From Prosthecobacter debontii (GTDB lineage: Bacteria > Verrucomicrobiota > Verrucomicrobiia > Verrucomicrobiales > Verrucomicrobiaceae), in assembly GCA_945860295.1 (NCBI GenBank), contig CAMAQH010000001.1, forward strand, positions 248,001-312,000: a stretch of 64,000 nt of DNA, written 5' to 3'. The notes beneath the pieces are model-generated. The model made no database searches. It was given only the letters and a program-made list of their open reading frames with translations, and was not told the DNA's origin. The translations under genes and the position numbers were made by a program. Of this stretch, positions 6,401 through 23,559 are shown in pieces. Numbering within the stretch: position 1 is the first letter of the stretch; the number at the start of each line of letters is the position of its first letter.

Positions 6401-7131
6401 ATGCTGAGTACACCGTCCCCACCACCGCAGTCCCAGCGACCATCACGTCGGCTCTGGGGGTTGTGGACGAGGACCATTTTAAGACTTCGTATCTGCCTAC
6501 CAGCTTAAACGGTGGAACGTATCCGTTGCCATCAGGCTCGAACAACAGTGTCGTCGTATGGCCCCTCGCCCCTGCACCACAGGGCCGCTCGGGAACCGTG
6601 ACCGTCAATCAAAGCACCTATGTTTTAGGTTCGACCGAAAGTACGCTGACGCAATCTCCGCTCAATGCCCCAACGGTGTTCAACTACTTCCTGCCCGACT
6701 ACAAGTTCCCAGGGACACTGGCAAACAATGGTTTGGATTCGCCTGAATTTCAGCTCTCGACAGATACCAACCTGACGAACCTGACAAACAGTCTAACAAA
6801 TATGTTTATCTCTACAAGCGGTGGTAATGGAAACCTGAATGGACTCAGCAGCTTCAATGCAGGCGGCGGCTCGGTCGTCATGAACATTGAACCATACATG
6901 GCCGATGCGAAGACTGCCAACGCAGGCATACCAGCACTGATTGACGAGCTGTCTAACCTCCTGGTGGGTGCGCCGTTGATAGCGGGCACAAAAACGGCCA
7001 TTCAGTCTTTTGTCGCCAACACGACGAACTTCCCAATGACAGGCTCGGGCACAAATTTACAGAAGCGTGACCGGGTGCGTGCGATCATCCACCTCATCAT
7101 TACCTCCACGGAATACGCTGTTCAGAAATAG
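457..7131 (+). CDS. Giant secreted DUF1800 protein with PA14, Ig-like and CHRD modules (unit A)
   Basis: A 2,224-residue exported protein. Domains in order: N-terminal signal segment ending near ANA (~38); two calcium-binding-type TSP3/EF-like loops (DTDGDGLKN ~70-91, DLDSDGDMASDW ~168-190); a Calx-beta-like stretch (~238-303); PA14 (~341-510, RWTGQVLPQYSETY and KVWVNGRLIID); a putative Ig (He_PIG) domain (~517-602, GPLPPGLSMS); a second PA14-like domain (~608-755, [18 protein letters not shown]); a CHRD domain (~795-938, HPQGEIIFDIDDAD and GEIRGNF); and DUF1800 from ~965 ([11 protein letters not shown]) to the C-terminus. DUF1800 is interrupted twice by repeats with PHGL..GD..TISGV..GxF and NTFTV motifs (~1235-1320 and ~1530-2010); its C-terminal part resumes at [19 protein letters not shown]1800 proteins usually pair with DUF1501 proteins, as here; their activity is not established. 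PA14 and CHRD suggest glycan or matrix binding outside the cell (inference). Confidence 0.9.
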   Translation: MKTSPFLLSFMGRFERLALQLIVLVSVIGILVTSANAYTISTTTDSISKGIWGLKYGVSEAQLADSNWLNADTDGDGLKNVSEIGAGTNPFLAAELVKVTSITMAGADVSLTVPTVLNKKYVVQGSQTLSGFDYIESGPSFSAPGTGSDVTLTATKGTNKFFRVLVHDLDSDGDMASDWAEVVAGYDKNNANSGGASSPRDDVVLTSAIPSSNVVTVTVTKSNALQPANALSAPIETGSITISRSGPLRITDITVPLQKSGTADAGTDYELLDVPTSITFTKAANANQGGASSIVIKINPKFNSSRKTNVTAIVKALAGVGYTLGSAVTGAVVINPTGVAEGTGLTGKYYANAATNYTSGNNFGVTKPSELLLTQVDSTIDFTSPYNVSTNPTGWDTPAPGTTRPITTTTGVYSIRWTGQVLPQYSETYSFDLRSREGGKVWVNGRLIIDKWTTQSTTENINTIALKAGVLYDIRVEYFSAGATPEARLYWWSNSRPKQIIPRERLFPEPGQVNKPTAITSSLAAVGYEGTSFSFNIISADISGATIYALAATSGPLPPGLSMSSAGAITGIPTLKGNYNVAVNATNTASGTVTGSSVIDFTIFPTGGVTREVFGNAGGNKVSDIAVPSGDPGHTTIAAIDDHSDRSNNTGVRLRGYIIPPKTGNYYFWVAANNAAELWISNDSQYVTKVLRASVTVTTGYKTWNAQTSQQSPWLSLVAGVKYYFEVLHNTGADADDHVAVGWCQDDIGTVPSVAGAPNATGLLTSIPNGGTALQGYPLSGAMPGFVCQPYDYPAVTPPSGKLYACNLGPQGGAITSASGSANIQVNAAETQAILHFSYQNLGSARIAYHLHVDSYTSSLALGSTIHPQGEIIFDIDDADALTSQQTGDGGYIWDFGAIGSFLNAAQVVEAIKSGKVYLNVHSVIYPAGEIRGNFNLIEGSQTPPNAALYTGANAPVATDSATDAVHAARFLNQATFGASTAEVAAVAAGFDNWIDAQLVKPASRTSNDVVAGITADINSPYPTSLFTNTWWKNSITGQDQLRQRLAFALSEIMVISWANDSGPLQNNGRILADYYDQLVDYVLPTAGLANSGNFRGILKAVTLTPAMGLYLDMRANQIGDVILGRIPNENYAREIMQLFSIGIYRMWDDGRFVLGSDAGLVATYTQSNIVGLSNLLTGWNYAQANQGNGRAPSSFGPGADFLNPMVLVPAYHELGPKLLLNHVVSPPATGRTPRVDISNIATGNPVCTITTKTVHGLKTGDTIIISGVAGGAFVGSINNSFQATVTAANAFTVPVVCTALVNNQGTVTGATVIQPAYTIPSAPLAIGVPPVSGSQADNSGAGAGHPFDQYGLKELDLAIDTIVNNDNVPPYICRQLIQRLVTSDPSPGYVYRVVQKFKNNGSGVRGDLAAVFRQILTDGEARRSTAAQASTNFGKQREPMLRLTGVARAFPASAYTGTYAQLTGLSANKLRLVTSTPNDFSAGFTVALDFRGNYVTPMPALPNPHTNPTSQSYGIGTTTAIAATHLDVAVVSAPTTSPTSFTCSKPHGMTGSKTIWFLGLSGKFSDVSINSGGKTATVVDSTTFTVPITVTNAFQIASISIGTPCTVTTTTPHGLPVGVTTGVTLNGVTGGTFSGGATSINGNGTFNVTNVTANTFTVASSTNVSVTCSAVPTAYTTWRMCSNPVRVTTVTPHGLANGDSVTVSGVSGGSFSPASALNLNPAGAYIVSGIDPSDPTGFTLAAVSCISPSTPNSGNIVGSSTLEVTDPSMVLATYTQTQGSSTMTVNTAGPETNKAVPSTATILKSKVYISVLSRTAVLPLTSMAINTNPVQITKANHGLNNGDTVTISGVTTGSFTGGLPNINRTHTVAVIDANTFTVPVALGATPPAAPGTATGTFGPQAANSVYEVQANAGNTFTVFTADTPTATRTGSVLIPKIPTSYSPMSGNTIVQFNTNVNHHINPAVATQIWVDVPVNVTVLTDAEYTVPTTAVPATITSALGVVDEDHFKTSYLPTSLNGGTYPLPSGSNNSVVVWPLAPAPQGRSGTVTVNQSTYVLGSTESTLTQSPLNAPTVFNYFLPDYKFPGTLANNGLDSPEFQLSTDTNLTNLTNSLTNMFISTSGGNGNLNGLSSFNAGGGSVVMNIEPYMADAKTANAGIPALIDELSNLLVGAPLIAGTKTAIQSFVANTTNFPMTGSGTNLQKRDRVRAIIHLIITSTEYAVQK
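4160..6480 (+). repeat. FCCH-like protein repeats inside the unit A DUF1800 gene
   Basis: At least five divergent copies of a ~55-70-residue module, plus one weaker copy, are encoded at roughly 4160-4350, 5040-5220, 5245-5460, 5500-5700, 5925-6120 and 6280-6480. The recurring pattern is [T/V]-T-x-x-x-HGL-x-x-G-[D/T]-x-[V/I]-x-[I/L]-x-G-V-x-G-G-x-F, followed by N-[T/A]-F-T-V. The first copy is separated from the rest by ~700 bases of DUF1800 sequence, so the modules interrupt DUF1800 at two places. The pattern recalls the beta-barrel module labelled 'ubiquitin-activating enzyme E1 FCCH' in domain databases, which also occurs in bacterial surface and phage proteins; no ubiquitin system is implied. 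Confidence 0.6.
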
Positions 7132-7140
7132 TCCAAACTC

Positions 7141-8820
7141 ATGAAGACAGAACCCCATTTTCATCTATCACGCCGCAGTTTCCTGCAGCGGACCTCGCCT
7201 TCTGTACTCGGGGCGACTGCGATGAGTAATTGCCTTCGTGACCTGATTCTTCTCGACTCAGCCATGGCTTTCAGCACCCCTACTGACTACAAGGCGCTCG
7301 TCTGCGTCTTCCTTGGTGGCGGAAATGACGCGAACAACCTGATTATCCCCACGGCCGCGTCGGAGTACGCCAACTACGCCACCGTACGCACCCCTGTGCT
7401 GGCTCTTCCCAATGCGGACGGCAGTCCTGCCAAGGCCCTGCAACTCACTACGTCGGGTGGCGGGAATTACATCGACGCCGCCGGACACGAGTTTGGTCTG
7501 AACCCAGCAATGTTCGAAATTGCTCAGATGTTCAATCAGAATTCTGTTGGCGGTTACGACGCTCTTGGAGCCAAGGCGGCTGTCGTGCTAAACAGCGGTC
7601 CGTTGGTCTTTCCGATGACAAAAGCCCAGTATTTGGCCAACTCGATCAAGAAGCCGCCGCAGCTTTTCTCACACGCTGACCAAGTCACTCAGTGGCAGAC
7701 GTCGATTCCAGATCAACCGCCATCCACTGGCTGGGGGGGGCGCATCGCCGACCTCGTTCACAGCGCCAATCCCAAGCAACTGGCCCCCAATGATGCGCTA
7801 GATGTTTTAGCGACCTGCATCACGATCGCTGGTGCCAACACTTTTCAGATCGGTCAGAGCGTCCAGCAGTATGCCATGGGGACTGGCGGGGTTGTGTCTC
7901 TAGCGAATCCTAGCAATCCATCGACGGCCGCGACCGCTCGGGACACGGCACTCAGAACCATCCTTGGCATTGGCAAAGCGAACGTTAACGAATACACCAA
8001 CAACTACGCTAAGGCGTTGGATGGCACCATCGCTGCAGGCCAGGGCTTGAGCACGGCACTCACGGCCTCACCTATGGCTGCCTATTACAGCACCGTAGCC
8101 AATTGGAGTAAGACAGGCACTGCGCATCAAGTGGTCACCCCGAACGGCGGAACGACTTTCACATCAAGCTTGATGCAGCAGCTCAAGATGGTCGCTCAAA
8201 TTATTGAAGCTAGCTCGCGTAAGTCCACTGCAAACAGTGGACTCGGGATGAAACGGCAGATCTTTTTTGTGACCGTGGGTGGATACGACACTCACACCGG
8301 CCAGACAAACAATCCGTCCGTCAACGGAACACCGCCGACGACCAACGATGCCGCGGTCGTCATTGGTTCCCAGGCAAACCTGCTCGCAGAAGTTAGCCAG
8401 AGCATCCACAGCTTCATGAAGGCAATGCAAGCCATCGGAGTCCAACAGCAAACGACAGCCCCTGGTTCGGGCCTGCATACTGGAGTGAACTCCGTCACCT
8501 GCTTCACCGCCAGCGACTTCAACCGCACCTTCAAGTGCAACGGTCTCGGGAGCGATCATTCTTGGGGCAGTCATCACCTCGTCATCGGCGGCGCGGTCAA
8601 TGGACGGCAAACCTATGGCACCTTTCCAAACCTAACCATCAATGGGCCGGACGACACCGGTGGCGTTGGATCATGGATCCCCACAACTTCCGTCGATCAA
8701 TATGCCGCGACACTTTCCAAATGGTTTGGCCTGAGTCAGAGTGAACTAACCACCGTCTTCCCCAATCTCACGCGCTTTTTAGGCACTTATGCTGGTGGCT
8801 ATCTCGGTTTTATGGCTTAG
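7141..8820 (+). CDS. DUF1501 family secreted protein (unit A)
   Basis: A 559-residue DUF1501 protein. The N-terminus has a twin-arginine signal (SRRSFLQR, residues ~10-17), so it is predicted to be exported folded by Tat. Family hallmarks are CVFLGGGNDANN (~60), [11 protein letters not shown] (~380), TASDFNRTF and LGSDHSWGSHH (~460-480) and a GGAVNG turn. The His/Asp-rich motifs fit the alkaline phosphatase/sulfatase-like fold proposed for DUF1501, but no substrate is known. It starts 9 bases after the DUF1800 stop and is surely co-transcribed with it. It is a close paralogue of 15691-17292 (shared N-terminus MKTEPHF.. and C-terminus GGYLGFM). Confidence 0.9.
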   Translation: MKTEPHFHLSRRSFLQRTSPSVLGATAMSNCLRDLILLDSAMAFSTPTDYKALVCVFLGGGNDANNLIIPTAASEYANYATVRTPVLALPNADGSPAKALQLTTSGGGNYIDAAGHEFGLNPAMFEIAQMFNQNSVGGYDALGAKAAVVLNSGPLVFPMTKAQYLANSIKKPPQLFSHADQVTQWQTSIPDQPPSTGWGGRIADLVHSANPKQLAPNDALDVLATCITIAGANTFQIGQSVQQYAMGTGGVVSLANPSNPSTAATARDTALRTILGIGKANVNEYTNNYAKALDGTIAAGQGLSTALTASPMAAYYSTVANWSKTGTAHQVVTPNGGTTFTSSLMQQLKMVAQIIEASSRKSTANSGLGMKRQIFFVTVGGYDTHTGQTNNPSVNGTPPTTNDAAVVIGSQANLLAEVSQSIHSFMKAMQAIGVQQQTTAPGSGLHTGVNSVTCFTASDFNRTFKCNGLGSDHSWGSHHLVIGGAVNGRQTYGTFPNLTINGPDDTGGVGSWIPTTSVDQYAATLSKWFGLSQSELTTVFPNLTRFLGTYAGGYLGFMA

Positions 8821-9137: not shown

Positions 9138-12100
9138 ATGAACATAATCCGTTTCTTCCCACATCTGTGCAGCCTCTCCAGCCGAGAATTGCTTCAGATG
9201 CTCGTGCTCGGCATCACTGTCGGATTCGGAGCTTCAGCAGCAAAGGCTGACATGGCCGACATCACCAACGCCGTATGGAAACTGAAATATGGCGTGACCG
9301 ATGCACATATTCAGGATACCAGCCCCAACGGATGGCTTGCCTCCGACAGCGATAGTGACGGCGTGAAAAATGGTGATGAAATCGTCGCGGGCACGAATCC
9401 TTTTGTCGGAGGTTCGGTGGTAAAGATCACTGATATAACGAGCGATGAGACCACTGTGGCATTGACCTTCCCGGCTTTGCAGGGGAAGCAATACGTGGTT
9501 CAAGGCTCTCCCAGTTTGTCAAACTTTCAATCCCTCACGGTAACCTTGATCGCGACTGAAACATCCAGCCAGACGTTGGTTGTCACGAAAGATAACAATA
9601 AGTTTTTCCGGATATTGGTGCAGGACGTTGACACTGATCTTGATGGGGTAAGCGACTGGGCTGAGATCACCGCTGGATATGATCCTAATAATGCGATGGA
9701 CGGTGGTGCTGCGGTGCTGGAACCCGCAATTGCGAGTTCGGACGTTGTGACTGTGATCGTGACGAAGCCAAACGCCCTCCAGCCATTGACTGGTTTTGCG
9801 CCGATTGAAACGGGATCAATCACTATCTCGCGCGGTGGCCCCCTAAAGTTTCACAGCATTACGGTGCCCCTTCAAAAATCGGGTACAGCGACAGAAGGAA
9901 CAGACTACGACTCATTGCCCAACTCCGTCACTTTCCCAGTAGGCGTGAGTGAGGTGGTCCTCGCCATCAATCCCAAGGCCAACGCCAGTCGCAAAACCAA
10001 CGTTACGGTCATTGTCAAAGTACTCACTGGGGGCAGCCTCAATTACACACTCGGAGCCAATACCAGCGGCAGTGTGGTGATCAATCCAGCGGGTATTGCG
10101 AATGGCACCGGACTGACCGCCAACTATCAAAACGCCGCCAACTCGACCTACACGTCACAGACGACCCTCGTCTTTGCCACAGCCGCTGAGATGACGCGGA
10201 CCGACGCCACGGTTGATTTCTCCACAGGCATGAATGGCTGGGGTGCAGTGGGCGGCCCGACGGGATTGAGCACAGTCTCTTCAACCGGTGCCTTCTCCGT
10301 GCGCTGGACTGGGCAGATCCTCCCCCAGTTTTCTGAGACATACACGATCGACTTCCGCAGTGATGATGGCGCGAAAGTTTGGGTCAATGGCGTGCTGCTC
10401 ATTGACCGTTGGACGACTCAAGGAGCGACGGATTACACCAACACCATAGCGCTCCAAGCGGGCACGCTTTACGACATTCAGATCGAATATTTCAACAGCG
10501 CCACTGGCAGTGCCGAAGCGAAGCTCTACTGGTGGAGTGCTAGTCAGGTGAAGCAGATCATCCCACAAGCTCGCCTCTTCCCAGCTCCGACACAGGCAGC
10601 TAAGACTACCGCCATTACTTCTTCCCTCACCGCAGTTGGTTTTGAAGGCACTCCATTTAATTTCAGCGTCACATCCTCAAATATCGGCGGCGCCGGAACG
10701 AGCTATGCTTTGGCGATCAATAGCGGTCCACTCCCAACAGGACTGAGCCTGAGTGCGAGCACTGGAGCGATCACGGGCATGCCCAGCACGGCTGGCATCT
10801 ACAATGTGGCGATTGATGCCACCAATGTGGCTGCTGCCGCTGTGATGGGGAGTTCGATTGTCAATATCACCATCTATCCCGTGGGTGCCGTCAGTCGTGA
10901 AATCCTCACCGCAAGTGGCCCTAATGTTTCGGACATCGTGATTCCGTCCCCATCGTTGACTCCGGCTAATGACACGATTGCTACTGTGGATGACGACACT
11001 GAATACGGAAACAATACGGGTGAGCGCCTGCGCGGTTATCTTGTCCCGCCGAAGACTGGCAATTACTACTTCTGGATCGCCGCGAATAATGCAGCGGAAC
11101 TTTGGATCTCAAACGATTCGGAATATGTGAATCGAGTCAAGCGTGCTTCTCTAACCGCGAATAGCGGCAAGAAAGTATGGAACACAACCGCCACCCAGCA
11201 GACTTCTTGGTTGTCGCTGGTGGCAGGAGAAAGATATTACTTCGAAGTTCTGCACAACACTGGCGGAGATGTCACGGATGACTACTTGGCGGTAGGTTGG
11301 TGCCAGGATGACCTTGGCACAGTGCCCGCCGTGGTCGGCGCTCCAAATGCAACGGGCGCTCTGACCTCGTTGCCAAACGGTGGTGGCCCGCTTCAGGGTT
11401 ATCCGCTCAGTGGCACGGTGCCGGGCTACATTTTCCAGCCTTATGATTATCCGGCAGTCGCGCCTTCTACAGGCTCCCTGTACGCCTGCAATATCGGCCC
11501 GCAAGCTAGCGCCATTACTTCAGCCAGTGGTTCCGCTAACATTCAGGTCAATGCTGGTGAGACGGAGGCAATCCTACGTTTTGCTTATCAGAATTTAACA
11601 ACGCCGAAAACATCGTATCATCTCCACGTTGACGGTTTCACCTCAGATATCGCCCTGGGCGGAACAGTCCATCCACAAGGTGAGATCATCTATGACATTG
11701 ATGATGCGGATCAGAATCCGGCTGAGCAGACGGGAGACGGCGGCTACATCTGGGATTTTAGGGCCGTAGGCACCTTTTCCACCGCTCAGTTGAGAGAGGC
11801 GCTACACAAAGGTAAGGTCTATCTCAACATTCACTCTGTTAGTTATCCGAATGGTGAAATTCGCGGTACTTTTGGCCTCATCGACGGTTCGCAAACACCA
11901 CCTGATGCAGCTAGTTGTGCTGCTCCTGTTGCTACTGATGATCCGACCAATGCTGCCCATGCTGCTCGGTTCCTAAATCAGGCGACTTTCGGCGCGAGTC
12001 CATCCGACGTTGCTGCAATCCAAGGCAGCAGCTTCCAGGCATGGATTACCGCACAGCTCAGCAAGCCCGCAAGTCGCACCTCCAACGATGTGGTCGCTGG

Positions 12101-15100
12101 TCTCACCGCAGACATCAACACGCCTTATCCATCATCCCTCTTCACGGACGCTTGGTGGAAAAATTCTATCACAGGACAGGATCAGTTGCGTCAGCGCTTG
12201 GCCTTTGCCCTCAGCGAGATCATGGTCGTTTCGTGGGCCAATAATACCGGCCCGCTGCAAAGCAACGGACGCATCCTCGCAGATTATTATGACCAATTGG
12301 TGGACTATTGCCTGCCAACAGCCGGACTGACAGACAGCGGTAACTTCCGTGGGATTTTGAAGCAGGTCACACTCACCCCAGCGATGGGACTCTATCTCGA
12401 TATGCGCGCCAACCAAAAGGGTGATGATACCATTGGTCGTCATCCCAACGAAAACTATGCCCGCGAAATCATGCAGCTCTTCTCGGTCGGCATCTACCGC
12501 ACCTGGGATGATGGGCGCTTCGTGCTCGGCACAGATGCAGGTCTAGTTTCCACCTACACCCAGCCTTCGATCATCGGCCTATCCAATCTGTTCACAGGTT
12601 GGAATTATGCCCAACCAAATCAAGCGAGCGGGCGCTTGCCGAGCAACTTTGGTCCAGGGGCAGATTACCTGAATCCCATGGTCCTCGTCCCTTCACAGCA
12701 CGAGCTTTCTTCCAAGTTCCTGCTGAATAATGTGAACAGTCCCGCAGCGACGGGTCGGACGCCGCGTGTTGCCATTACCAGTGTTTCAACTGGCTCCCCA
12801 TGTACGGTGAATACCACCACGATTCATGGGCTGAAAGTCGGGGACACCATCCTGATCGCCAACGTGGCCAGTGGCACTTTCAGCGCGCCGATCAATGCCT
12901 CACATCAAGTCACTGAAATCGTCGATGCCGACTCGTTCAAGGTCGCCGTCAATCTGACGACAGGCATTCCGACTTACGTCAACGCCACCGTCACGGGTGC
13001 CACGGTCACACCTGCGGCTATTTCTGGCACCGCAGGCATCACTGCCGTGACTGGATCCCAGGCCGACAATTCTGGTGCGGGTGCCAACCATCCTTATGAC
13101 CAATACGGACTCAAGGAGCTAGAGCTAGCCATCGACAACATCGTCACCAATGACAACGTCCCGCCCTACATCTGCCGCCAGTTGATCCAGCGGCTTGTCA
13201 CCAGTGATCCTAGCCCAGGCTACATTTACCGTGTGGTGCAGAAGTTTAAAAACAACGGCTCTGGTGTGCGCGGTGATTTGGCAGCCGTCGTATCGCAGAT
13301 CTTGCTCGATGGCGAAGCCCGCCGCAGCAGTGTCACTCAGACATCCACCACCTTTGGCAAACAGCGCGAGCCGATGCTCCGCCTCACCGCTCCCGCCCGC
13401 GCCTTCCCGGCGGCGAACTACACTGGCACCTACACGCAGTTGACCGGGGTTAATTCCAACAAGCTTCGGATCGTCACTTCGGCCCCGAATGATTTCAGTT
13501 CTGGGTTCACCGTTGCTCTAAATTTCCGGGGTAACTATGTGACCCCGATGCCGAGCGTGCCGAATCCTGCCAATAACCCCACGAGCACCAATTACTCCGT
13601 TGGGTCAACGACAGCGATCGCCGCCACTCACATCGACATCTCCACCATTAGCTCCGCAGGTACGACCCCAACTACAATGACCTGCACCCAGCCGCATGGC
13701 ATGGGCGCGAATGGCCAAACAAGGACGATCTGGTTGTTTGGACTTTCAGGGAAGTTCTCTGATGCCAGCATCAACTCAGGTGGAAAAACGGCGACCGTCA
13801 CTGGCCCTAACACCTTCACTGTTGCTGCTAGCACGACACACATCTTCCAGGTCGCGTCAGTGGCCACTGGCACTCCCTGCACGGTCACCACCGTCGATCC
13901 ACACGGCCTGCCTGCTGGAGCCACGACCGGAGTCACCATCAATGGCATTGTCGGTGGGACATTCAGCGGTGGAGCCACATCTCTGAATGGCACCGCCTTC
14001 ACCGTGACCAACACAGGCGCAAACACCTTCACCGTCGCCAGTTCCAGTCTCGCCAATGTGACCTGCTCGGCTGCCCCCACCAGCTTCACCACTTGGCGGC
14101 AGTCCAGCAATCCGGTCCGCGTCACCACGGTCACACCTCATGGATTGGTCAATGGTGATAGTGTGACGATCTCCAGTGTCGCGGGGGGAAATTTCAGCCC
14201 GACTATCAACGGCACTTTCGATGTGAGTGAGGTCAGCACTTCTGCTTTTACGCTCGCAGCTGTTAGCTCTATCGCACCCTCAACCGTGAACACAGGCAAC
14301 ATCGTCGGAGCCAACACCATGGAGGTCACGGCGACGGGTATGTCCAATGCGAGCTACACGCAGTCTGCTGGCAGCAACATCCTGACCGTGAATACAGGCG
14401 GCCCGCCGACGAATCAGACTGTGCCAGGCACGAAGATAAACATCACAAGCATCTCAGCCGGCAATCCTTGTATGGTGACAACGAGTGCCGCACACAACCT
14501 CGTCAGTGGCGGACTGGTCTCCATTGCAGGTATCACGGATGGGGCCTTTGGCACTGCAATCACTGGCAACTTGGTGCCTACGGTTACTTCAACGACGACG
14601 TTCACCGTGCCTGTGGATTGCACGGTCGCTCCCTTGATTTACACCGCCGGAACGACCACCACGACCAAGCTTACTCGGAGTAAGGTCTATCTGGCTTTCC
14701 TCACGCAGACTACTGCGGGTGGCGCGGCGATCCCGACCGATGGAGTGTTTGAAGTGCTGAGTGCCAATGGCACGACTTCCTTCGCCTATGTCACCGCAGA
14801 CACACCCGTCACAGCGCGCGCAGGCAATGTCCTGCTACCGAAATTCACCACTAGCTACACTCCGAGCGGCACCAACATTCTCTTCAACACCAACGTGAAT
14901 CACAACCTTTTGGTTGGGAACAAAATTTGGGTGGATGTGCCAGTGGTCGGCAGTCCAGTGACAGATGCCGAATACGCCGTTTCTGTGATCACTGATGAAG
15001 ATCACTTCACGACTTCTAGAACACCCAATCCTACCAATGGCGGCATCTACCCCAATCCGTCTGGCTCAAACAATGGCATAACCGTTTATCCGCTGGTGGC

Positions 15101-15680
15101 TCCTCCGCTGGGCAGGTCTGGTTCAGTCATCATCAATCAGAGCACTTACAATTTAGGCTCCACTGAAGGCTCGATCACTCAATCGCCGCTGAATGCACCG
15201 ACAGTGTTTAACTACTTCTTTCCAGACTACAAGTTCCCAGGTACCTTGGCCAATAGCGGCCTGGATTCACCCGAATTTCAGCTCACCACGGACACTAACG
15301 TGATGAATCTGACCAATAGCCTAACCAACATGATCATCGGCACAGGTGGTGGTAATAGCAATCTCAACGGTCTCAGCAGTTTCAACAATGGCAGTGGCAC
15401 TGTGGTGATGAATATTGAACCCTACATGACCAATGCCAAGACGAGCGAGGCGGGGATTTCCGCCTTGATCGATGAATTGGCAATCCTGTTGGTTGGTGCT
15501 TCTCTGGATGCAGGCCCGAAGGCTAGGATCGTTAATTTCGTGAATCACAAAAATGGCAGCAACGTGCTGGACTACCTGCCTTACACGACGCTTACACCGA
15601 CCAACCTTCAGAAGCGCGACCGCGTGCGGGCCATCATCCACCTTATTATCACCTCAGCCGAATTCGCAGTTCAGAAATAG
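9138..15680 (+). CDS. Giant secreted DUF1800 protein with PA14, Ig-like and CHRD modules (unit B)
   Basis: A 2,180-residue paralogue of the protein at 457-7131, collinear over most of its length. Signal segment ending near AKA (~34); Asp-rich TSP3/EF-like loops at ~69-91 and ~163-185; Calx-beta-like ~223-281; PA14 ~321-484; He_PIG ~492-577; second PA14-like ~581-734; CHRD ~768-917; DUF1800 from ~938, broken by FCCH-like repeats at ~1210-1290 and ~1494-1940; DUF1800 C-terminal part from ~2014, ending [17 protein letters not shown] like unit A. The core ([34 protein letters not shown]) is nearly identical in both copies. The repeats and the linker before the C-terminus differ, and the copy before the SKVY segment sits at a different place than in unit A. 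Secreted; function unknown, probably acting with its DUF1501 partner. Confidence 0.9.
12760..14990 (+). repeat. FCCH-like protein repeats inside the unit B DUF1800 gene
   Basis: Same module as in unit A: copies at about 12766-12960, 13640-13830, 13850-14060, 14100-14290, 14435-14640 and a divergent one at 14850-14990. Copies 2-4 align with their unit A counterparts one to one (PHGM, PHGLPxGxTTGVT, [13 protein letters not shown]). Copy 5 precedes the conserved SKVY segment here but follows it in unit A. Confidence 0.6.
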
Positions 15681-15690
15681 TCCCCGACAT

Positions 15691-17292
15691 ATGAAGACGG
15701 AACCCCACTTCAACATCTCACGCCGTAGCTTCCTCCGGCGCTCCGCACCAGTCGCTCTCGGTGCCAGCGCGATGAGTAACTGCTTTCGCGATCTCTATCT
15801 GATCAATTCAGCGATGGCTGCTGATACCACTGGCTACAAGGCGCTCGTCTGCGTCTTCTTAGCGGGCGGCAATGATTCAAACAATATGATCATCCCGACC
15901 ATCGCGTCCGAGTATGCCAGCTATGCCACGATCCGCACGCCCGTGCTGGCGCTGCCCAATGCGGTGAATGGAAACAACGCAACAGCACTAGCCTTGAGTA
16001 AATTGAATTCTGATGGGCACGACTACGCTCTGAACCCGGCGATGTTCGAGCTGGCCCAGATGTTTAACCAAGCCCCTGGCTACAATGATCTGGGTAAAGT
16101 GGCCGCCGTGCTCAATAGTGGACCCCTTGTTTTCCCAATGACTAAGGCCCAGTATGTAGCCAACTCGATCAAGAAGCCGCCGCAGCTCTTCTCTCATGCC
16201 GATCAGGTCACGCATTGGCAGACCTCGCTTCCCGATCAGCCCATCTCCTCAGGCTGGGGTGGCCGCCTCGCCGATCTTGTTCACGATGCCAATCCCAAGA
16301 ATGGAGCATTGGATATTCTCTCCACCTGCATCACCATCTCAGGCACAAATACCTTTCAGGTCGGCTCTAACGTGCAGCAGTACTCCGTGGGCACGGGCGG
16401 TGTCGTGGCACTGTCCAGTCCTAGCAACCCATCAACAGCATCTGTTGCGCGAGATGCCGCTTTGAAAGGTATGCTCGCCGATGACAAGCTGCATGTGAAC
16501 CCATTCACCAGCAACTATGCCAAAGCCTTGGACAACACCCTGGCAGCCGGTGCTGGATTGAGCGCCGCTCTCGCCAGTTCGCAGATGGCCTCCTATTACA
16601 CCACACTAGCAAATTGGAGCAAGACGGCGACGGCGCATCAAGTGATTACTCCAAACGGCGGCTCGACCTTCACCTCAGGACTCATGCAGCAGCTCAAGAT
16701 GGTGGCTCAGATTATTGAGGCTGGATCACGCACGGCAGGCGTCAGCAACGGCTTGGGGATGAAGCGCCAAGTCTTCTTTGTACAAGTCGGCGGTTACGAC
16801 ACACACACCGGACAGACCAATGCCGCGAGTGCCACGCCCACTGCCGCCAATGTCATCATCGGCAGTCAGGCAAACTTACTCGCAGAAGTCAGCCAGTGTC
16901 TCTGGTCCTTCATGAAAGCGATCAAGCAAATCGGCATCACTCAGAGCAAGGCGGACTTCGTCAACAGTGTCACCTGCTTCACTGCCAGTGACTTTGGCCG
17001 CACTTTTCCGTGTAATGGCCTTGGTAGCGATCATGGCTGGGGTAGCCATCACCTCGTCGTCGGTGGTGCGGTTAATGGCCAGAAAACATTTGGCACCTTC
17101 CCCACACTCGCGGTCGGTGGGCCTGACGATACCAGCACCGGCCGCTGGATTCCTACCACCTCAGTTGATCAATACGCAGCGACACTCGCTAAATGGTTCG
17201 GTGTGGGTGCTGGCGAAATCGCCACAGTCTTTCCAAATCTCACTCGCTTCTCAGGAAGCTATGGTGGCGGGTATCTCGGCTTCATGACTTAG
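15691..17292 (+). CDS. DUF1501 family secreted protein (unit B)
   Basis: A 533-residue paralogue of 7141-8820. The frame is open further upstream, inside the DUF1800 gene, but the ATG at 15691 is the right start. It gives the same [15 protein letters not shown] twin-arginine N-terminus as unit A and sits 10 bases after the preceding stop. Hallmarks are [43 protein letters not shown] and a GGAVNG turn. Predicted Tat substrate of the DUF1501 family. It is followed after 19 bases by the small pseudopilin-tailed protein, which unit A lacks. Confidence 0.9.
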
Positions 17293-17311: not shown

Positions 17312-17941
17312 ATGAAAATACAAATTGTCGCAGTGCTCATCATTGCAGTGGTGGGGGCCATCATTATCGGTGCTTGGCTTGGTGGCTGGGGTGACAAATT
17401 GCCTGCCAGCAGTGTCCGGGCACCCAAGCCCGTCGTTCTTCCCACAGTCAAAATTACACCACCAGCTTCGACTCCACAGCCGAGTCCCGTCGCACAGGTG
17501 GTGCCTTCTCCGCCCGCGCCACCCCCGTCCGTTGTCGCTTCAGTTATCGCCATGGCACCACCTGCACCTATGGTGGCTCCTGCTGCCAGTGCCAGCCCTG
17601 CATCTGGAGGCTCACCACCCGCAAAGCCTAGTGCAGACTTAGTGACTGATGCGGCAGTTCAGATCGACAAAATTGGCCTCATGTTCCGTGACTACCGCAC
17701 CCTCATGGGTTCAAACCCGATCGGCACCAATGCAGAAATTATTCAGTCCGTGAATGGCGGTAATCCCAAGCAGGCAAAGTTGGGGCCGCCAGAGGGGCAG
17801 CAGATCAATGCGCGCGGTGAGTTGATTGATGCGTGGGGAACAGCGTATTTTTTCCATCAAAAATCTGCCTCTGACATGGAGATTCATTCCGCAGGTCCAG
17901 ATAAACAATTTGGCACCTCGGATGACATCATTGGCAGGTGA
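17312..17941 (+). CDS. Membrane-anchored protein with Pro/Ala-rich linker and pseudopilin-like tail
   Basis: 209 residues: an N-terminal hydrophobic helix (~4-26) followed by a long Pro/Ala/Ser-rich stretch (~30-105) and a globular C-terminal domain (~110-209). That domain ends in GELIDAWGTAYFFHQ, HSAGPDKQFGTSDD and IIGR. The tail matches the C-terminal signature of GspG-type pseudopilins, but there is no type IV pilin-like prepilin peptidase site (G-F-T-L-x-E) at the N-terminus, so it is not a standard pseudopilin. It is the same family as the partial gene at 2-328. It lies 19 bases after the DUF1501 gene, probably in one transcript. It may be a periplasmic partner or export factor of the DUF1800/DUF1501 pair (inference). 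Confidence 0.75.
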   Translation: MKIQIVAVLIIAVVGAIIIGAWLGGWGDKLPASSVRAPKPVVLPTVKITPPASTPQPSPVAQVVPSPPAPPPSVVASVIAMAPPAPMVAPAASASPASGGSPPAKPSADLVTDAAVQIDKIGLMFRDYRTLMGSNPIGTNAEIIQSVNGGNPKQAKLGPPEGQQINARGELIDAWGTAYFFHQKSASDMEIHSAGPDKQFGTSDDIIGR

Positions 17942-17969
17942 AGCGCGCATCGCGTGCTATCCTTTGATC

Positions 17970-19244
17970 ATGTGCCGTCGCTTTTTTACCACCTTTGCTC
18001 TTTCAGTCATCCTTTGCGCAACTGCGATACGGGCAGACGTGCCTCTTCCACCCAATGTGCTCGACCCCAAGACGCCTGCTGAAGCGTGGAATGTGATTCG
18101 TCTGAGCCGTGCCAATGTCGCCAGACTTCTTCAGGAAAAGCGCGTCTCAGAGGTTCCTGAACAAGTCTCTCTGTGCAGTCCTGCACTTCGATTGCTTGCC
18201 CATACCGCCGTTTCGGCTGAGCAGCGTCTCTTGATCGATGAGCAAACATCCCGTGCCTTTAGTTCCGTCAATAGCATCGCTCAGTCTTGCATGGTCAGGA
18301 GTCAGCTAGATGCAGACAAAGGCTTTATCGAACTTGAGTCTGCGCTCGCCAAACTTGCATCCGTCTTTGACGCTGCAGACGTGAGCGCAGAAATTTATTA
18401 TTGCACCACGCACCCTGAAATTATTTCAACAGCCACGGGCGTGACCTGCCGAAAATGCGCGGCACCACTAAGCGTCCGCCGCATCCCTTACAGCTTTGTT
18501 TATGTTGCGCCCGGTACGCCAACATTGCAGCTAAGCCTAACGGAAAGTAAGCCACTCGTGGCGGGCCAAAAAATGACGATCCAAATGCAACTCCGCACCA
18601 CGCGCGGACTGCCTGTTTCAGAGTCAGATCTTCTGATCGTTCACTCAAAGCCCATTCATCTGTTCATCACAAATCCTTCTCTTAGCGTGTTCCAAACGGC
18701 CCATCCAACGCCTGCTGGGGTGGCGGGTGATTACACCTTTTCATTAACTCCCTCAGTGAATGGCCCCTGCCGAATCTGGGCGGACATCGTGCCAGTTGCC
18801 ACTGGCTTGCATGAGTTGCCTTTTGCTGACATCGGCGGTGTCTTTGTTCCTGCTGCGCCGAAAAAAACCACGGAGGCACGCACTAACACGATAGAAGGTT
18901 TCACATTTGAACTCTCCTTTGCCGGGATCAACGATGGGCAACCTCATTCACGGCAAATTCAGCTCATGCGCATTAAGGCCACCGACTCAGTGGGGAAGCC
19001 TGTGGAGCGCCTCGAACCTCTCATGAATGCCTTTGCTCAAGTCGTAGGCTTTTACGATGACCACCAGACCGTTCTCCGACTGCATCCCATAGGTGGTGAC
19101 ATCTTGCGTGAGGATCTTCGTGGCGGTCCTTATCTAGGTTTTAAAATCTATCCGCCACGCCCTGGACTGGTGCGCTTTTACTGCCAAGTCCGCATTGATG
19201 GCCGCACGATCACCGTGCCACTCAGTATGAACGTGGTGGAGTGA
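17970..19244 (+). CDS. Secreted protein with heavy-metal-binding-domain-like motif
   Basis: 424 residues from the ATG at 17970. The frame is open upstream, but only this start gives a clean signal peptide (MCRRFFTTFALSVILCATAIRA). Around residues 142-165 there is C-x-x-HPE followed by C-x-x-C-x-x-PL. This is the pattern of the heavy-metal-binding domain found at the N-terminus of copper ATPases and in Cus/Ccm-type periplasmic proteins (C-P-M-HPE ... C-P-x-CGM-x-L), with the Met residues changed. The second half (~200-320) has a beta-rich region resembling YtkA-like domains (LSVFQTAHPTPAGVAGDYTF). It starts 28 bases after the previous stop, so it likely belongs to the unit B transcript, and it ends 2 bases from the convergent dehydrogenase gene. 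Metal binding is an inference. Confidence 0.7.
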   Translation: MCRRFFTTFALSVILCATAIRADVPLPPNVLDPKTPAEAWNVIRLSRANVARLLQEKRVSEVPEQVSLCSPALRLLAHTAVSAEQRLLIDEQTSRAFSSVNSIAQSCMVRSQLDADKGFIELESALAKLASVFDAADVSAEIYYCTTHPEIISTATGVTCRKCAAPLSVRRIPYSFVYVAPGTPTLQLSLTESKPLVAGQKMTIQMQLRTTRGLPVSESDLLIVHSKPIHLFITNPSLSVFQTAHPTPAGVAGDYTFSLTPSVNGPCRIWADIVPVATGLHELPFADIGGVFVPAAPKKTTEARTNTIEGFTFELSFAGINDGQPHSRQIQLMRIKATDSVGKPVERLEPLMNAFAQVVGFYDDHQTVLRLHPIGGDILREDLRGGPYLGFKIYPPRPGLVRFYCQVRIDGRTITVPLSMNVVE

Positions 19245-19246
19245 AC

Positions 19247-21748
19247 TCAGAACCGATCCACTTGCAGCCGAACAAACTTTTTTTCGTTAGCTCCAGATGG
19301 AAGTGTCTGGGTCACCGCGACTAGTCTGATCGTTCCGTTGGGGGCGCCTTCAGCTACGCTGACACTGCCAGTTTGTGCCACCGTCACGGCACCTGCTGTA
19401 CTCTGCGCTATGGTTGTCCACAGCAGAAGATCGCTGCTGGTTTGTAGTTTGTAGATGAGATCCTCCGCGCTGGAATCACGGCGGAAGGTGACGGTGAAAT
19501 CTGTGGCACCGAGAGCTGCTGGTGCAAGAGCCGTGGCGAAATCACTCGATTCATCAAAGGCCAGGGGATTTAGGCCGTAGGCGTACTCGATCTGGTTCTT
19601 GATGCCATCACCATCGTTGTCTCCTTCTGGATCGACAAATTGACCGATGAGGTTGGTTGAAAAATAAGTCGCGAGCCATGTGTCGAAAGGAGCCGTCGGA
19701 GCGGCGTCATAGGTGATGTCTAGCGCTGGTGGTGACCCGCCACTCTGGATGCTGGAAAATTGGCAGGCCGTCGTATTCGTGGTCTCGTTGCTACGAATGA
19801 TCCAGCCTGCATTGGTCGCTGGCGCATTGACCCAAGACTGCACGTCTGTTTTGAGGAGCGTCGTATTTGTCCAAGTCATGAATGATGCGCCCGATTGTAG
19901 TGCGGTGGCAGATGCCGTGGCCGTAAAGTTACCGCCTGGAGTGGGCCACGCTGTAGTATTAAAAAAGCGATACGTCCATGTTGCGTCACTGGTGGTGGCT
20001 GGCGCTCCGTAACCTCCTGTCACATTGAGTGATGTGCCTTCTCCCCACGTTTGAGTCAGTCGATGCACCGTGAAGCTAGCACCAGCGGAAGAGGGGCCCG
20101 CTTTGGAGAGTTTAAGTTTGAGTTGGGCGGACTGGATAAGGGCAGGGTAGGGCACTTGTCCAGAGAGATCAAAGGCCACTAAGGCGCGTCGATTGTAGGG
20201 GCCATAGTTGGGTCCTGTTCGACCGGCATACAAGTAGCCAGTGCCATCGCTGTAGTCTCGAGAATAATCCACATCCTCGGAGAAAATAGTGTTGTCCTTG
20301 GATGCTTGAAGCGATTTTGAATAACTTTGAGGAGTGACGATTTTATAAATGCCGCCTGATGGCATCGCACCATCGAGTTCCAATACACCCCCTTTTGTTT
20401 TCAATCCGATATAGATCTCACCGCTTTCATCTTCTCCTAGGCAGAGGAGGCGTTGACCAACGATTGGATTAGATGAGGCAAGTGGCAGTGCCTGCGTCAG
20501 CGTGAACACACCACTATTAGGGGCAGTCTCTTCGAGTCCCATCATACGACCATCAGAAGCACCGCCAGTGGAGCTATAGTCACCGAAGATGTATTTCCCC
20601 TGAAGCCCAGGAATCGCAGAGCCTCGGTAAACGAATCCGCCCGTCACGGAGAGTCCCAATTGCGGTAATACCGGACTGGTGACGACCCCAACATGAGCAT
20701 ACATGGCGATGGGGTCTGTGACCACGCCGCCGGGAACAGGTGAGCCAACTGAGAAGGTAGGAAGCTCGATGCCTTCCTTGTAACGCCAGCCATAGTTTCC
20801 ACCGGAGACGATGAGATTGATCTCCTCAATTCGGCCCTGTCCCACATCGCCGCAAAACATGCGGTTGGTGCCTCCAGCGCGTTTGTCGAAAGAGAACTTC
20901 CATGGGTTGCGCATTCCAAAACAGTAGATCTCTTCTTTCACTCCGCCCCCTATGCCAACAAATGGATTGCTGGGCGGGATGCTGTAAGTCAGCGGTCCAC
21001 CACCATCTGGATCGACCGGATTGATGCGCAGAATTTTGCCGAGATACCGCGTCTTATCTTGGCCATTTCCCAAAGCGTTAGTGGGCCGTGGAGCGATAGC
21101 GCTACCGCCCGTGTGACCAGCGTTGTTGTCATTGGAACTGCCCCCATCGCCACAGCCGATATAGAGAAAACCGTCAGGTCCAAATTCGAGTTGTCCGCCA
21201 TTATGATTGGACTGTGGCTGAGTGAAGACGAGTAGCCTTCGCTCAGAAGTAAGGGGCGCCAAGTTGGGGTTCAACGGTGAAACTTCGAATTCGGCGATGA
21301 CGGTCACGCAATCCACAGGATCACCGACTTGAGGTGGAGCCGGATCGGTGCCCACGACATAGGGCTTGTTGTAGTTGACGTAAAATTTGCGATATCCGGG
21401 AGAATCTGGAGTCGCGAAACCAGGATGGAACGCCAGACCTAGCAATCCGCGCTCATCGTAGCCTGTACCAATCGTCACTGCAGGGCCTGGGCCATTGTCA
21501 GGCGCAACATTGCTGTTGCTGGCGATGTTGAGGAACGGTGTCGGCAGCATCATGCCGCCCTGGATGATGTAGATCTTCCCCAGCTGGTCGCAGACAAATA
21601 GGCGACCATTGCCATCAGGCGCATAGGTTATCGTGGTCGGTGAGTGGATCTGCTTCAGCACGACGGGTTTTAAAGCCAGGGTCGGAAAAGCGGCAACAGT
21701 GTGCTGGGTCAGTAGGAGACCGATGATGAACGTGATTCGAAAATGCAT
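19247..21748 (-). CDS. PQQ-type glucose/sorbosone dehydrogenase-like secreted protein with DNRLRE domain
   Basis: 833 residues with a signal peptide (~1-19). Residues ~25-470 form a six-bladed propeller of the GSDH family (SPTTITYAPDGNGRLFV, RGLLGLAFHPGFA, NHNGGQLEFGPDGFLYIGCG, FCGDVGQGRIEEIN). Such proteins oxidise sugars using PQQ in the periplasm or outside; many family members in this phylum have unknown substrates. Residues ~490-670 look like a DNRLRE module (YAGRTGPNYGPYNRRALVAF, VHRLTQTWGEG). Then comes an Asp-rich loop (DPEGDNDGDGIKN ~690) and a C-terminal beta domain common in verrucomicrobial surface proteins. It lies 26 bases downstream of the MbnP-peroxidase fusion on the same strand, so the two probably form an operon. 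Confidence 0.85.
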   Translation of the reverse strand: MHFRITFIIGLLLTQHTVAAFPTLALKPVVLKQIHSPTTITYAPDGNGRLFVCDQLGKIYIIQGGMMLPTPFLNIASNSNVAPDNGPGPAVTIGTGYDERGLLGLAFHPGFATPDSPGYRKFYVNYNKPYVVGTDPAPPQVGDPVDCVTVIAEFEVSPLNPNLAPLTSERRLLVFTQPQSNHNGGQLEFGPDGFLYIGCGDGGSSNDNNAGHTGGSAIAPRPTNALGNGQDKTRYLGKILRINPVDPDGGGPLTYSIPPSNPFVGIGGGVKEEIYCFGMRNPWKFSFDKRAGGTNRMFCGDVGQGRIEEINLIVSGGNYGWRYKEGIELPTFSVGSPVPGGVVTDPIAMYAHVGVVTSPVLPQLGLSVTGGFVYRGSAIPGLQGKYIFGDYSSTGGASDGRMMGLEETAPNSGVFTLTQALPLASSNPIVGQRLLCLGEDESGEIYIGLKTKGGVLELDGAMPSGGIYKIVTPQSYSKSLQASKDNTIFSEDVDYSRDYSDGTGYLYAGRTGPNYGPYNRRALVAFDLSGQVPYPALIQSAQLKLKLSKAGPSSAGASFTVHRLTQTWGEGTSLNVTGGYGAPATTSDATWTYRFFNTTAWPTPGGNFTATASATALQSGASFMTWTNTTLLKTDVQSWVNAPATNAGWIIRSNETTNTTACQFSSIQSGGSPPALDITYDAAPTAPFDTWLATYFSTNLIGQFVDPEGDNDGDGIKNQIEYAYGLNPLAFDESSDFATALAPAALGATDFTVTFRRDSSAEDLIYKLQTSSDLLLWTTIAQSTAGAVTVAQTGSVSVAEGAPNGTIRLVAVTQTLPSGANEKKFVRLQVDRF

Positions 21749-21774: not shown

Positions 21775-23559
21775 CTACTTGGCCAATGGGAGTGGTGTCG
21801 ACTCAAATCGGCTGTCGGTCAGTGCCTTCAAGAAAGCGATGATAGCGCTTTTATCATCCTTTGTTAGGTGCAGGCCACCGTTAGGATGCTTAGCCAGATT
21901 TGGATCCAGTGTGTCGGTGCGAGATACGCCCACGCTGTAGTGTTCGAGTACTTCCTCCAGAGTGGTAAAGCGGCCATCATGCATGTAGGGAGCCGTGAGC
22001 GCTATGTTACGCAGGCTCGGTGTGGCAAAGGCACCGCGGTCAATACTTGTTTGGGTGACTTTGGAGCGCCCCAAATCAGCTTCTGAGATCTCTAGCCCGT
22101 TGTTACGGAATTGGTGGTCGGTGAATAAGGCACCGCCATGGCAGTGAAAACAATCACCGCCCATGCTGCCCATACGTGGCTCACGCTCCGTCATGAAAAG
22201 TTCAAAGCCTCGTTTTTCGTCATCACTAAGTCTCTCTTCTCCGCTTATCGAACGATCAAATTTGGAGTCGTGTGAAGTAAGCGTGAGGAGGAAGTTTTCT
22301 ATAGCCAGTCCGATCTTCTCCGTTGTTATCTCAGGCGAACCAAAAGCGCGCTCAAAGGCTGGGTCATACGCCTCTATCATGGCCAGCTTCTTTACCACAT
22401 TGTCCAGAGATTCATCCATCTCCAGATGATCCTGAATGGGGATGAGCGCCTGTGTCCGCAGGTTCGGTGCTCGACCGTCCCAGAAGAATTCACGCTTCCA
22501 GGCGAGATTAAAGAGCGGCATGGCATTACGGTCTCCGATGCCACCTGCAACTCCGATGCTGAAGCGCCGGGGATCGCTCAGCGCTGCTGCCTGGTCATGG
22601 CAGGAGGCACAAGAAATTGTCCCATCACGAGACAGTGCTTTGTCATGAAACAACAAGCGCCCTAGCTCCACGCGCTCTTCGATCAGTGGGTTGTCATTCG
22701 GGAGTGCAGGCATGGGGAATTGCGCGCCCATGGTGAATTTAAAAGGCGTGAATTTTTTCGGCAAATAAAGCGGCGTGAGTTTTGGATCTGCCGCCGCTTC
22801 AGTCGTCGTCGTGGACTCGGGAGCAATGCTAAATGCACGCGCTAGATTCTCTTTGAGTGCCAGCGCCAGCGGGTCGCCACCTTTCGAGTGGGTCGTCGTT
22901 CCGTCCTTGGCAAACGAAATGTTCTTCACGCTATCGAGCACGGCAGCGACATTGAAGACGACTGGGATGACCGCATCCTCCCGAAGATCGAGTGAGAGCT
23001 TGAGTGTTACTTCCGTGAGGAATGGGTCACGAGCGAGATGATAGGCGTAGCCCTCCGGCTGGCCATTGCCAGTTCGGTGCAGTCCTTCGAGTGCCATGAA
23101 GATGTAACCGCCCTGCCAACTCCAGTGCAGTCCGCAGAGATTCGGGTTCAGTGGATGGTCCGCAGCGCGCGTTGATGGATCGGCTGCATTGTTCTTGGGG
23201 TCGATGCCAACGTGAAAACGCAATGCCTGATATTTGCCTTCTGGGATCTCAGTCTGACGCATCATTTGTCTCCGCGTAGCTGCATTCATCCAAGCCGCGG
23301 AATTCGGAGCATTGAGCCACGATCCGTCCTCACGTTTGAGGGACACGCCGCTGATCAGATAGCTCAGTCGTGTGACTGACCAATCCTCTCCAGATTGATT
23401 GCGGTATCGCAATGAATCTAAGAGCAGGGGATTGGTACCCGCGTGATGATCGAAGACGAGTTGCAGTGTCGCTGCCTCAAGCGGTGCTAGGACACAGGTC
23501 AACGCCAGCGCTGCGCATGACAGCGCGGTTTGCATGAGGCTGGTTTTTTTTATCATCAT
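21775..23559 (-). CDS. MbnP-like domain fused to di-haem cytochrome c peroxidase (MauG/MbnH-like)
   Basis: 594 residues. Signal peptide (~1-30). Residues ~31-245 are an MbnP-like domain: LQLVFDHHAG at the start, TRLSYLISGVSL (~63-74), and the family signature LHWSWQGGYIFMALEG (~144-159) with Trp146 and Trp148. Residues ~265-594 are a di-haem peroxidase: haem motifs CASCH (317-321) and CFHCH (470-474), LGRLLFHDKALSRDGTISC before the first, and FATPSLRNIALTAPYMHDGR after the second. In methanotrophs MbnP and MbnH are separate partner proteins. MbnH, a MauG-family di-haem enzyme, oxidises a Trp of MbnP to kynurenine and MbnP binds copper. Here enzyme and substrate would be one polypeptide. Translation may begin at either of two adjacent ATGs. 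Periplasmic or extracellular; copper handling is inferred. Confidence 0.87.
   Translation of the reverse strand: MMIKKTSLMQTALSCAALALTCVLAPLEAATLQLVFDHHAGTNPLLLDSLRYRNQSGEDWSVTRLSYLISGVSLKREDGSWLNAPNSAAWMNAATRRQMMRQTEIPEGKYQALRFHVGIDPKNNAADPSTRAADHPLNPNLCGLHWSWQGGYIFMALEGLHRTGNGQPEGYAYHLARDPFLTEVTLKLSLDLREDAVIPVVFNVAAVLDSVKNISFAKDGTTTHSKGGDPLALALKENLARAFSIAPESTTTTEAAADPKLTPLYLPKKFTPFKFTMGAQFPMPALPNDNPLIEERVELGRLLFHDKALSRDGTISCASCHDQAAALSDPRRFSIGVAGGIGDRNAMPLFNLAWKREFFWDGRAPNLRTQALIPIQDHLEMDESLDNVVKKLAMIEAYDPAFERAFGSPEITTEKIGLAIENFLLTLTSHDSKFDRSISGEERLSDDEKRGFELFMTEREPRMGSMGGDCFHCHGGALFTDHQFRNNGLEISEADLGRSKVTQTSIDRGAFATPSLRNIALTAPYMHDGRFTTLEEVLEHYSVGVSRTDTLDPNLAKHPNGGLHLTKDDKSAIIAFLKALTDSRFESTPLPLAK

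Follow-up and report, generated by a model that had tools for sequence, protein, structure and literature searches.

The question raised by this locus is whether a single chain may hold both an enzyme and the protein that it modifies. An MbnH-type haem enzyme alters one tryptophan of its partner MbnP and thereby readies MbnP for copper. In the window, by which we mean the whole 64,000 nucleotide stretch of Prosthecobacter debontii that was analysed, an initial annotation had read one gene as a natural fusion of the two partners. The gene occupies exactly positions 21775..23559 on the minus strand (23559..21775) and encodes 594 amino acids. The fusion is real, since MbnP family PF20243 and the MauG-type di-haem peroxidase family PF03150 (CCP_MauG) are both matched in this one frame. 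PF20243 scores 114.6 bits over residues 31-220 against a curated cut-off of 27, which places the MbnP match within the first 250 residues as anticipated, and PF03150 covers residues 294-442 in the Pfam search with an E value of 4.7e-54, far above its cut-off. The proposed MbnP signature at H145-W148 and the two CxxCH motifs (at 317 and 470) are also present. The positions of these features and of the neighbouring genes are collected in the table below.

Features of the fusion gene and of the adjacent genes in the window (positions are those of the window; residues are those of the fusion protein)
Feature	Position	Strand	Basis or remark
Sec-type leader	23470..23559	-	residues 1-30, by eye; AlphaFold helix 3-22
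MbnP domain	22900..23469	-	residues 31-220; Pfam PF20243, E 6.8e-33; Z 17.4 to 7l6g
H145-W146-S147-W148	23116..23127	-	W146 is the predicted kynurenine
H174, predicted copper ligand	23038..23040	-	counterpart of the invariant HLGS His of split MbnP
H224, predicted copper ligand	22888..22890	-	aligns (joint alignment) with the invariant Met of the CMS motif of split MbnP
MauG-type di-haem domain	21778..22680	-	residues 294-594; Pfam PF03150; Z 30.9 to 6e1c MbnH
CxxCH 317-321, predicted peroxide-reactive haem	22597..22611	-	H321 = MauG H35; MauG alignment
W360, between the haems	22480..22482	-	MauG W93; MauG alignment
E380	22420..22422	-	MauG E113; MauG alignment
CxxCH 470-474	22138..22152	-	H474 = MauG H205; MauG alignment
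Y541, predicted axial Tyr	21937..21939	-	MauG Y294; Met in this column in the contig-12 CCP of the same genome
GSDH (sugar dehydrogenase family) + DNRLRE domain	19247..21748	-	next gene, same strand, 26 bp downstream
Convergent gene, motif YYCTTHPEI...CRKC	17826..19244	+	itself without Pfam match

A profile search of the whole genome returned a single MbnP match, the fusion gene, and four CCP_MauG matches including the fusion gene, one of the four being below the cut-off. AlphaFold modelled the full chain, without haem, at a pLDDT of 85.4 and a pTM of 0.81; by ten-residue blocks the pLDDT is 76 at residues 141-150, 88 and 68 across 311-330, and 79 and 50 across 461-480. The promoter and terminator scan gave counts not above those of shuffled sequences.

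An MbnP match was found in 49 of the 68 genomes of the family and, in a sample of the phylum, in 22 of 387 genomes belonging to six families; the fusion is therefore frequent within its own family and sporadic outside it. Within the family the frame measures at least 562 amino acids at 72 of the 76 matched places, one of the 72 (G053) holding two in-frame stops, and two CxxCH motifs are present in all thirty fusions examined (the source genome and 29 others), which argues against an assembly artefact. In the phylum sample the frame reaches 578 amino acids or more at 24 of 27 places. This recurrence also disposes of a fusion unique to one genome. When named genomes were scanned with the MbnP domain, 220 relatives came up, and the best 80 of them were analysed; sampling beyond the phylum consisted of plasmid records only. 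By their titles these best 80 all come from Verrucomicrobiota, except L111, which is labelled just "bacterium". MbnP and two CxxCH motifs share one frame in 75 of them, including L124 which lacks the N-terminal part and L126 which runs off its contig near the end. Of the other five, four reach a contig edge ahead of their second haem motif; the fifth, L139, carries a frameshift and has its haem domain in an overlapping frame. The distance from H224 to C317 is 85-95 residues (median 93, 10-90% range 92.7-94; 78 of the 81 rows formed by the window protein and the 80 loci).

Split pairs inside the phylum were considered for three short frames, each of which is explained otherwise: G187 is a fusion broken by insertions, G174 is frame-broken, and G009 is a degenerate haem-less copy. 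The short frames G005, G007 and G008 lie near contig ends, as judged by their coordinates. In G187 (L171:2231-6046) the inserted DNA carries transposase-like ORFs, recognised by eye, and a gene of the YHYH family is found upstream. In L067, L074 and L096 the fusion frame runs well upstream of the usual start and reaches 797-1047 amino acids. The alignments comprise 27 of the 30 fusions (A1), the window and 73 of the 80 loci (A2, leaving out L076, L098, L110, L124, L126, L131 and L139), the window and 63 of the 80 loci (A3), and 97 of 98 neighbours (A5, leaving out L096:8282-12652); L163 is part of no analysis.

The score of the MbnP domain with TIGR04052, the MbnP equivalog of NCBIfam, is 39.9 bits, under the curated cut-off of 140; this family is matched by 74 of 74 fusions at E 0.001 or better, the bit score being that of the window protein alone. 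In a sequence-profile search of the PDB the sole match of the domain was 7l6g, the Methylosinus MbnP, and it was weak (E 0.016). The isolated domain is modelled with a pLDDT of 95.0, and 7l6g is again its sole clear fold match (Foldseek E 1.8e-7; Z 17.4, rmsd 3.4, 200 aligned residues), the next entry having Z 4.7. The full-chain search recovers the same structure over residues 28-254 with Z 18.4. CorA and MopE are absent among the listed fold and PDB profile matches of the domain.

W146, the first tryptophan of the WxW motif, is kept in all 81 rows, and W148 in 80, being Met in L120. H145 is kept in 80 rows and replaced once by Tyr, H174 in 80 with Pro in the frame-shifted L139, and H224 in 79 with one Pro and one gap. 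A second set of sixty MbnP-bearing frames, whose species overlap those of the first, includes 56 with two haem motifs, corresponding to 54 distinct places (L054 equals L170, and L059 repeats the L050 frame); W146 is kept in all 56, and W148 is Pro in G380. Conservation of tryptophan in orthologues, on which the proposal of self-modification depended, thus holds for W146, W148 not being kept in all. The haem-less MbnP paralogue of G009 (L167:10595-11575) has R and S at the two tryptophan positions and no His at 224. No other complete paralogue of this kind was found, so that the loss is seen only once; the remaining three frames lacking haem motifs are fragments.

Split MbnP proteins, taken from six plasmid records, have in common N-H, W-x-W, a His in HLGS, several Cys and a Cys-Met. 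The HLGS His is kept in the fusions as H174, and no Cys equivalent to the classical MbnP Cys motif was found in the aligned regions of the fusions. The joint MAFFT alignment places H224 at the Met of CMS; a separate profile alignment stops there and does not confirm the match. According to Manesis and colleagues (PNAS, 2021), the MbnP site reportedly consists of His, Met, solvent and kynurenine, and the first tryptophan is said to be the one modified to kynurenine. For CorA and MopE, the literature gives a Cu(I) site of two His, solvent and kynurenine, with the kynurenine of CorA 2.9 A from copper (PMC3912023, PMC3423442). Since the HLGS His is kept, H224 falls on the CMS Met, and CorA and MopE use two His and a kynurenine, we predict for the fusions a Cu(I) site made of H174, H224 and Kyn146.

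The haem domain resembles MbnH most closely among known folds. The best match of the full chain is 6e1c, the Methylosinus MbnH entered as a MauG-like protein associated with copper homeostasis (Z 30.9, rmsd 2.3, 304 aligned residues), followed by MacA, the best CCP, at Z 27.2 and by MauG at 26.8 at most. TIGR04039, the hypothetical equivalog for the MbnH family in NCBIfam, gives 232.2 bits, under its curated cut-off of 362.85. In the alignment with Paracoccus versutus MauG, numbered with the first haem His as 35, residues H321, W360, P374, E380, H474 and Y541 fall on H35, W93, P107, E113, H205 and Y294. We take these MauG residues to have functional roles, several of them being named in the titles of MauG variant structures. 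The sequence accordingly has the feature set of the MauG/MbnH type, with two CxxCH motifs, an axial Tyr, an inter-haem Trp and a distal Glu. No equivalent of the MauG hopping residue W199 is present (G468 occupies its place), and it is also absent in the split MbnH rows shown. In the fold listing, 20 of 50 rows, all of them CCP-type chains, begin their alignment at model residues 145-148, while the MbnH and MauG rows begin at 272-293. The starts of these CCP-type alignments hint that the WxW loop, in a model block with pLDDT 76, lies against the haem domain where the N-terminus of a CCP sits.

In the trees, the fused haem domains form one group with support 100/99. Their sister group, according to the best trees, consists of two enzymes that lack MbnP (support 96/92), one of them encoded on contig 11 of the source genome. 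Holding fused and split haem enzymes together gave p-AU values of 0.20, 0.0002 and 0.020 in three samplings. In the sampling with 0.0002 three unlabelled CCPs fall among six split MbnH and the Deinococcus pair stands apart, so that the rejection is not a clean one; the sampling with 0.020 leaves out those three CCPs and two long rows, and that with 0.20 leaves out L151. A narrower haem tree places all eight split MbnH in one group. The narrower tree and the 0.20 sampling include 25 of the 81 fused rows, the other two 16 of 81. The fused MbnP domains group with Deinococcus against six classical MbnP with support 100/99, subject to a long-branch warning. By sequence the haem domain appears MbnH-like and outside the MbnH group of the trees, and a separate recruitment of the haem partner is possible. 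The initial designation as MbnH-like is borne out by fold and not by a grouping with MbnH, and we use this name rather than MbnH because the trees do not establish a single origin of the pairing.

Comparison with known systems defines what is particular to the fusion. With MbnP/MbnH of Methylosinus trichosporium (7l6g and 6e1c; TIGR04052 and TIGR04039) it has in common both predicted folds, the WxW motif and a di-haem enzyme with Tyr at the position of MauG Y294. It differs in being one chain rather than two genes and in lacking the Cys motif, after which classical MbnP is named a four-Cys motif protein in PDB and NCBI. Further differences are the nearly invariant H145 and H224, a His aligned with the CMS Met, and a haem domain that appears to lie outside the MbnH tree group. 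As had been supposed, methanobactin genes appear to be missing: the MbnB family has no match in the genome (the control matched in 2 of 14 genomes). CorA/CorB of Methylomicrobium album and MopE/SACCP of Methylococcus capsulatus combine kynurenine and a two-His Cu(I) site with a di-haem partner encoded by a separate gene, whereas in the one-chain fusion such a site is predicted; the relevant papers describe the site and a MauG-like partner gene (PMC3912023, PMC3423442, PMC3621798), and PMC3621798 places separate-gene pairs well beyond methanotrophs. MauG itself acts in methylamine dehydrogenase maturation; the fusion has the residue equivalents given above, but lacks W199 and carries its candidate substrate domain in the same chain.

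The split MbnP and di-haem enzyme of Deinococcus (L141, L142) share with the fusion the absence of the Cys motif and the MbnP tree grouping, but are two genes and have an M-x-W-A-W motif without H145. Among plasmid records, the fused haem domain is matched best by the enzyme of D. grandis (42.9%), in which the split MbnP and enzyme genes are two genes apart with a copper resistance gene between. In D. radiodurans the split pair is adjacent and lies beside CopC/CopD. We also observed that proteins labelled "methanobactin export MATE transporter MbnM" directly after MbnP have two CxxCH motifs in five of five cases (L156:3885-5045, L144:5570-6739, L143, L157 and L158), and the two that were scanned both match CCP_MauG; from their sequences they look like mislabelled MbnH. 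No description of a fused MbnP-MbnH was found among the literature matches listed. The MbnP paper (PNAS 2021) is said to include a genome-neighbourhood survey, which may mention fusions.

The gene downstream was initially taken as a sugar dehydrogenase whose product might be the source of electrons or peroxide. A GSDH gene does follow in the window, but it does so in only 9 of 81 loci (L061-L067, L081 and the window; L081 has both GSDH and YHYH), and the commonest neighbour is instead an upstream gene of the YHYH family (PF14240). With genes called by a simple ORF caller, YHYH is the gene immediately upstream, in the same orientation, at 33 of the 76 loci with a called upstream gene, 22 of the 33 at a gap of -4 to 30 bp, and by HMM count it is within five genes of the fusion in 39 of 81 loci. 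An earlier count of 48 loci, from a protein cluster, was too high, the cluster having mixed YHYH with sulfatases and others (44 of its 66 proteins are YHYH by Pfam). The source genome has five YHYH matches in 4.7 Mb, too few for such frequent adjacency to be due to chance, although the loci are related. No YHYH gene lies within five genes of the fusion in the window or its nearest relatives L061-L067, and none was found in the stretches around eight split MbnP/MbnH pairs. There are no copper families among the 25 commonest families of other direct neighbours. PMC7824862 describes the YHYH domain as enigmatic and predicts zinc binding and a hydrolase role for it.

Other observations concern the surroundings. 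YHYH and the fusion form an apparent operon, e.g. at L121:4109-5914 in the cultured soil bacterium Chthoniobacter flavus Ellin428, a functional lead for PF14240. On contig 11 of the source genome (L150:4365-5723 and 6319-7212) another MauG-like enzyme is encoded whose N-terminal region is different; some 0.6 kb separate its gene from a YHYH gene, and an ORF between the two looks lipocalin-like by eye. For the convergent gene at 17826-19244, one of five homologues (L081) has an HMBD match with E 8.5e-5 and 22.9 bits, below the 23.6 cut-off, and the product is possibly metal-binding. Further along the window, 9138-15680 encodes a protein of 2180 amino acids with PA14, CHRD and DUF1800, followed at 15553-17292 by a DUF1501 protein.

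As the fusion recurs in several Verrucomicrobiota families, it may be a self-modifying protein, and we consider it probable that it is an exported single-chain protein with a Cu(I) site which matures itself by converting Trp146 to kynurenine. The C-terminal domain would take up two c-type haems and react with peroxide, or with O2 and electrons, like MauG and MbnH. The five-coordinate haem on H321 and the His/Tyr haem on H474/Y541, with W360 between them, would share a high-valent di-iron state, by which the haem domain would oxidise W146 of the N-terminal WxW to kynurenine; Kyn146, H174 and H224 would then form a tight Cu(I) site. Oxidation could take place within one chain (cis) or between two (trans). 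Architecture, predicted folds, residue conservation, the near-constant spacer and recurrence in several families are what the sequences and models show; the chemistry and the identity of the ligands we infer. Self-maturation is favoured by two domains that, as modelled, match both partners of one known pair, by MauG residues that each have their counterpart, the axial Tyr among them, by W146, kept in all haem-bearing chains examined and lost in the haem-less G009, by the near-constant spacer, by the hint that the WxW loop lies against the haem domain, by the kynurenine and two-His sites of CorA and MopE, and by the copper genes beside the D. radiodurans pair. Counted against it are the missing W199 equivalent, the MbnH and MauG rows of the fold listing, which give no such hint, the modest pLDDT of the WxW block, the trees, which do not join the fused haem domain to split MbnH, and the lack of copper families among the 25 commonest families of other neighbours.

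Other readings account for part of these data. The haem domain might act mainly on or with the YHYH protein encoded upstream, the MbnP domain serving for copper delivery or docking; the tight same-strand spacing of the two genes is as this would have it, a YHYH gene is likewise found ahead of the broken fusion in G187, a genome of a distant family, and a haem paralogue of the source genome has a YHYH gene close by. Yet W146 is kept at the window locus and in L061-L067, where YHYH is missing within five genes, and the split pairs do without it in their surroundings, and we regard this reading as unlikely. Somewhat less likely still is a periplasmic peroxidase whose MbnP domain would bind copper with its Trp left unmodified and act as a sensor or electron donor: the nearness of the haem fold to CCPs and the MbnP-free sister group agree with it, but the axial position of the second haem is Tyr, like MauG, not Met, and W146 is strictly kept rather than replaced by any aromatic residue. 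That we are dealing with a decayed copy, or with two genes joined in assembly, is hardly credible. Broken copies do exist, G187 by insertions, and G174 and L139 by frameshift, but the one-frame structure of 75 of the best 80 loci, the near-constant spacing and the invariant active-site residues already contradict it.

Self-maturation thus remains our preferred reading. A broader version, in which self-modifying copper proteins across several Verrucomicrobiota families use two His and kynurenine, that is MopE-like coordination in an MbnP fold, together with a YHYH partner that is secreted and either takes over copper or is oxidised itself, is a tentative and rather doubtful extension. The pair itself is known; what is new, within the literature searched, is that it occurs as one chain, that this form recurs in Verrucomicrobiota, that the site is altered and that there is a link to YHYH. 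The substrate of MauG binds from outside, so that long-range oxidation is hard to study, and a protein that naturally unites the two in one chain, at a near-fixed spacing, would, if self-maturation is true, offer a single-construct system for it. Kynurenine copper sites would then enter Verrucomicrobiota in a new format. The YHYH family gains a first functional lead.
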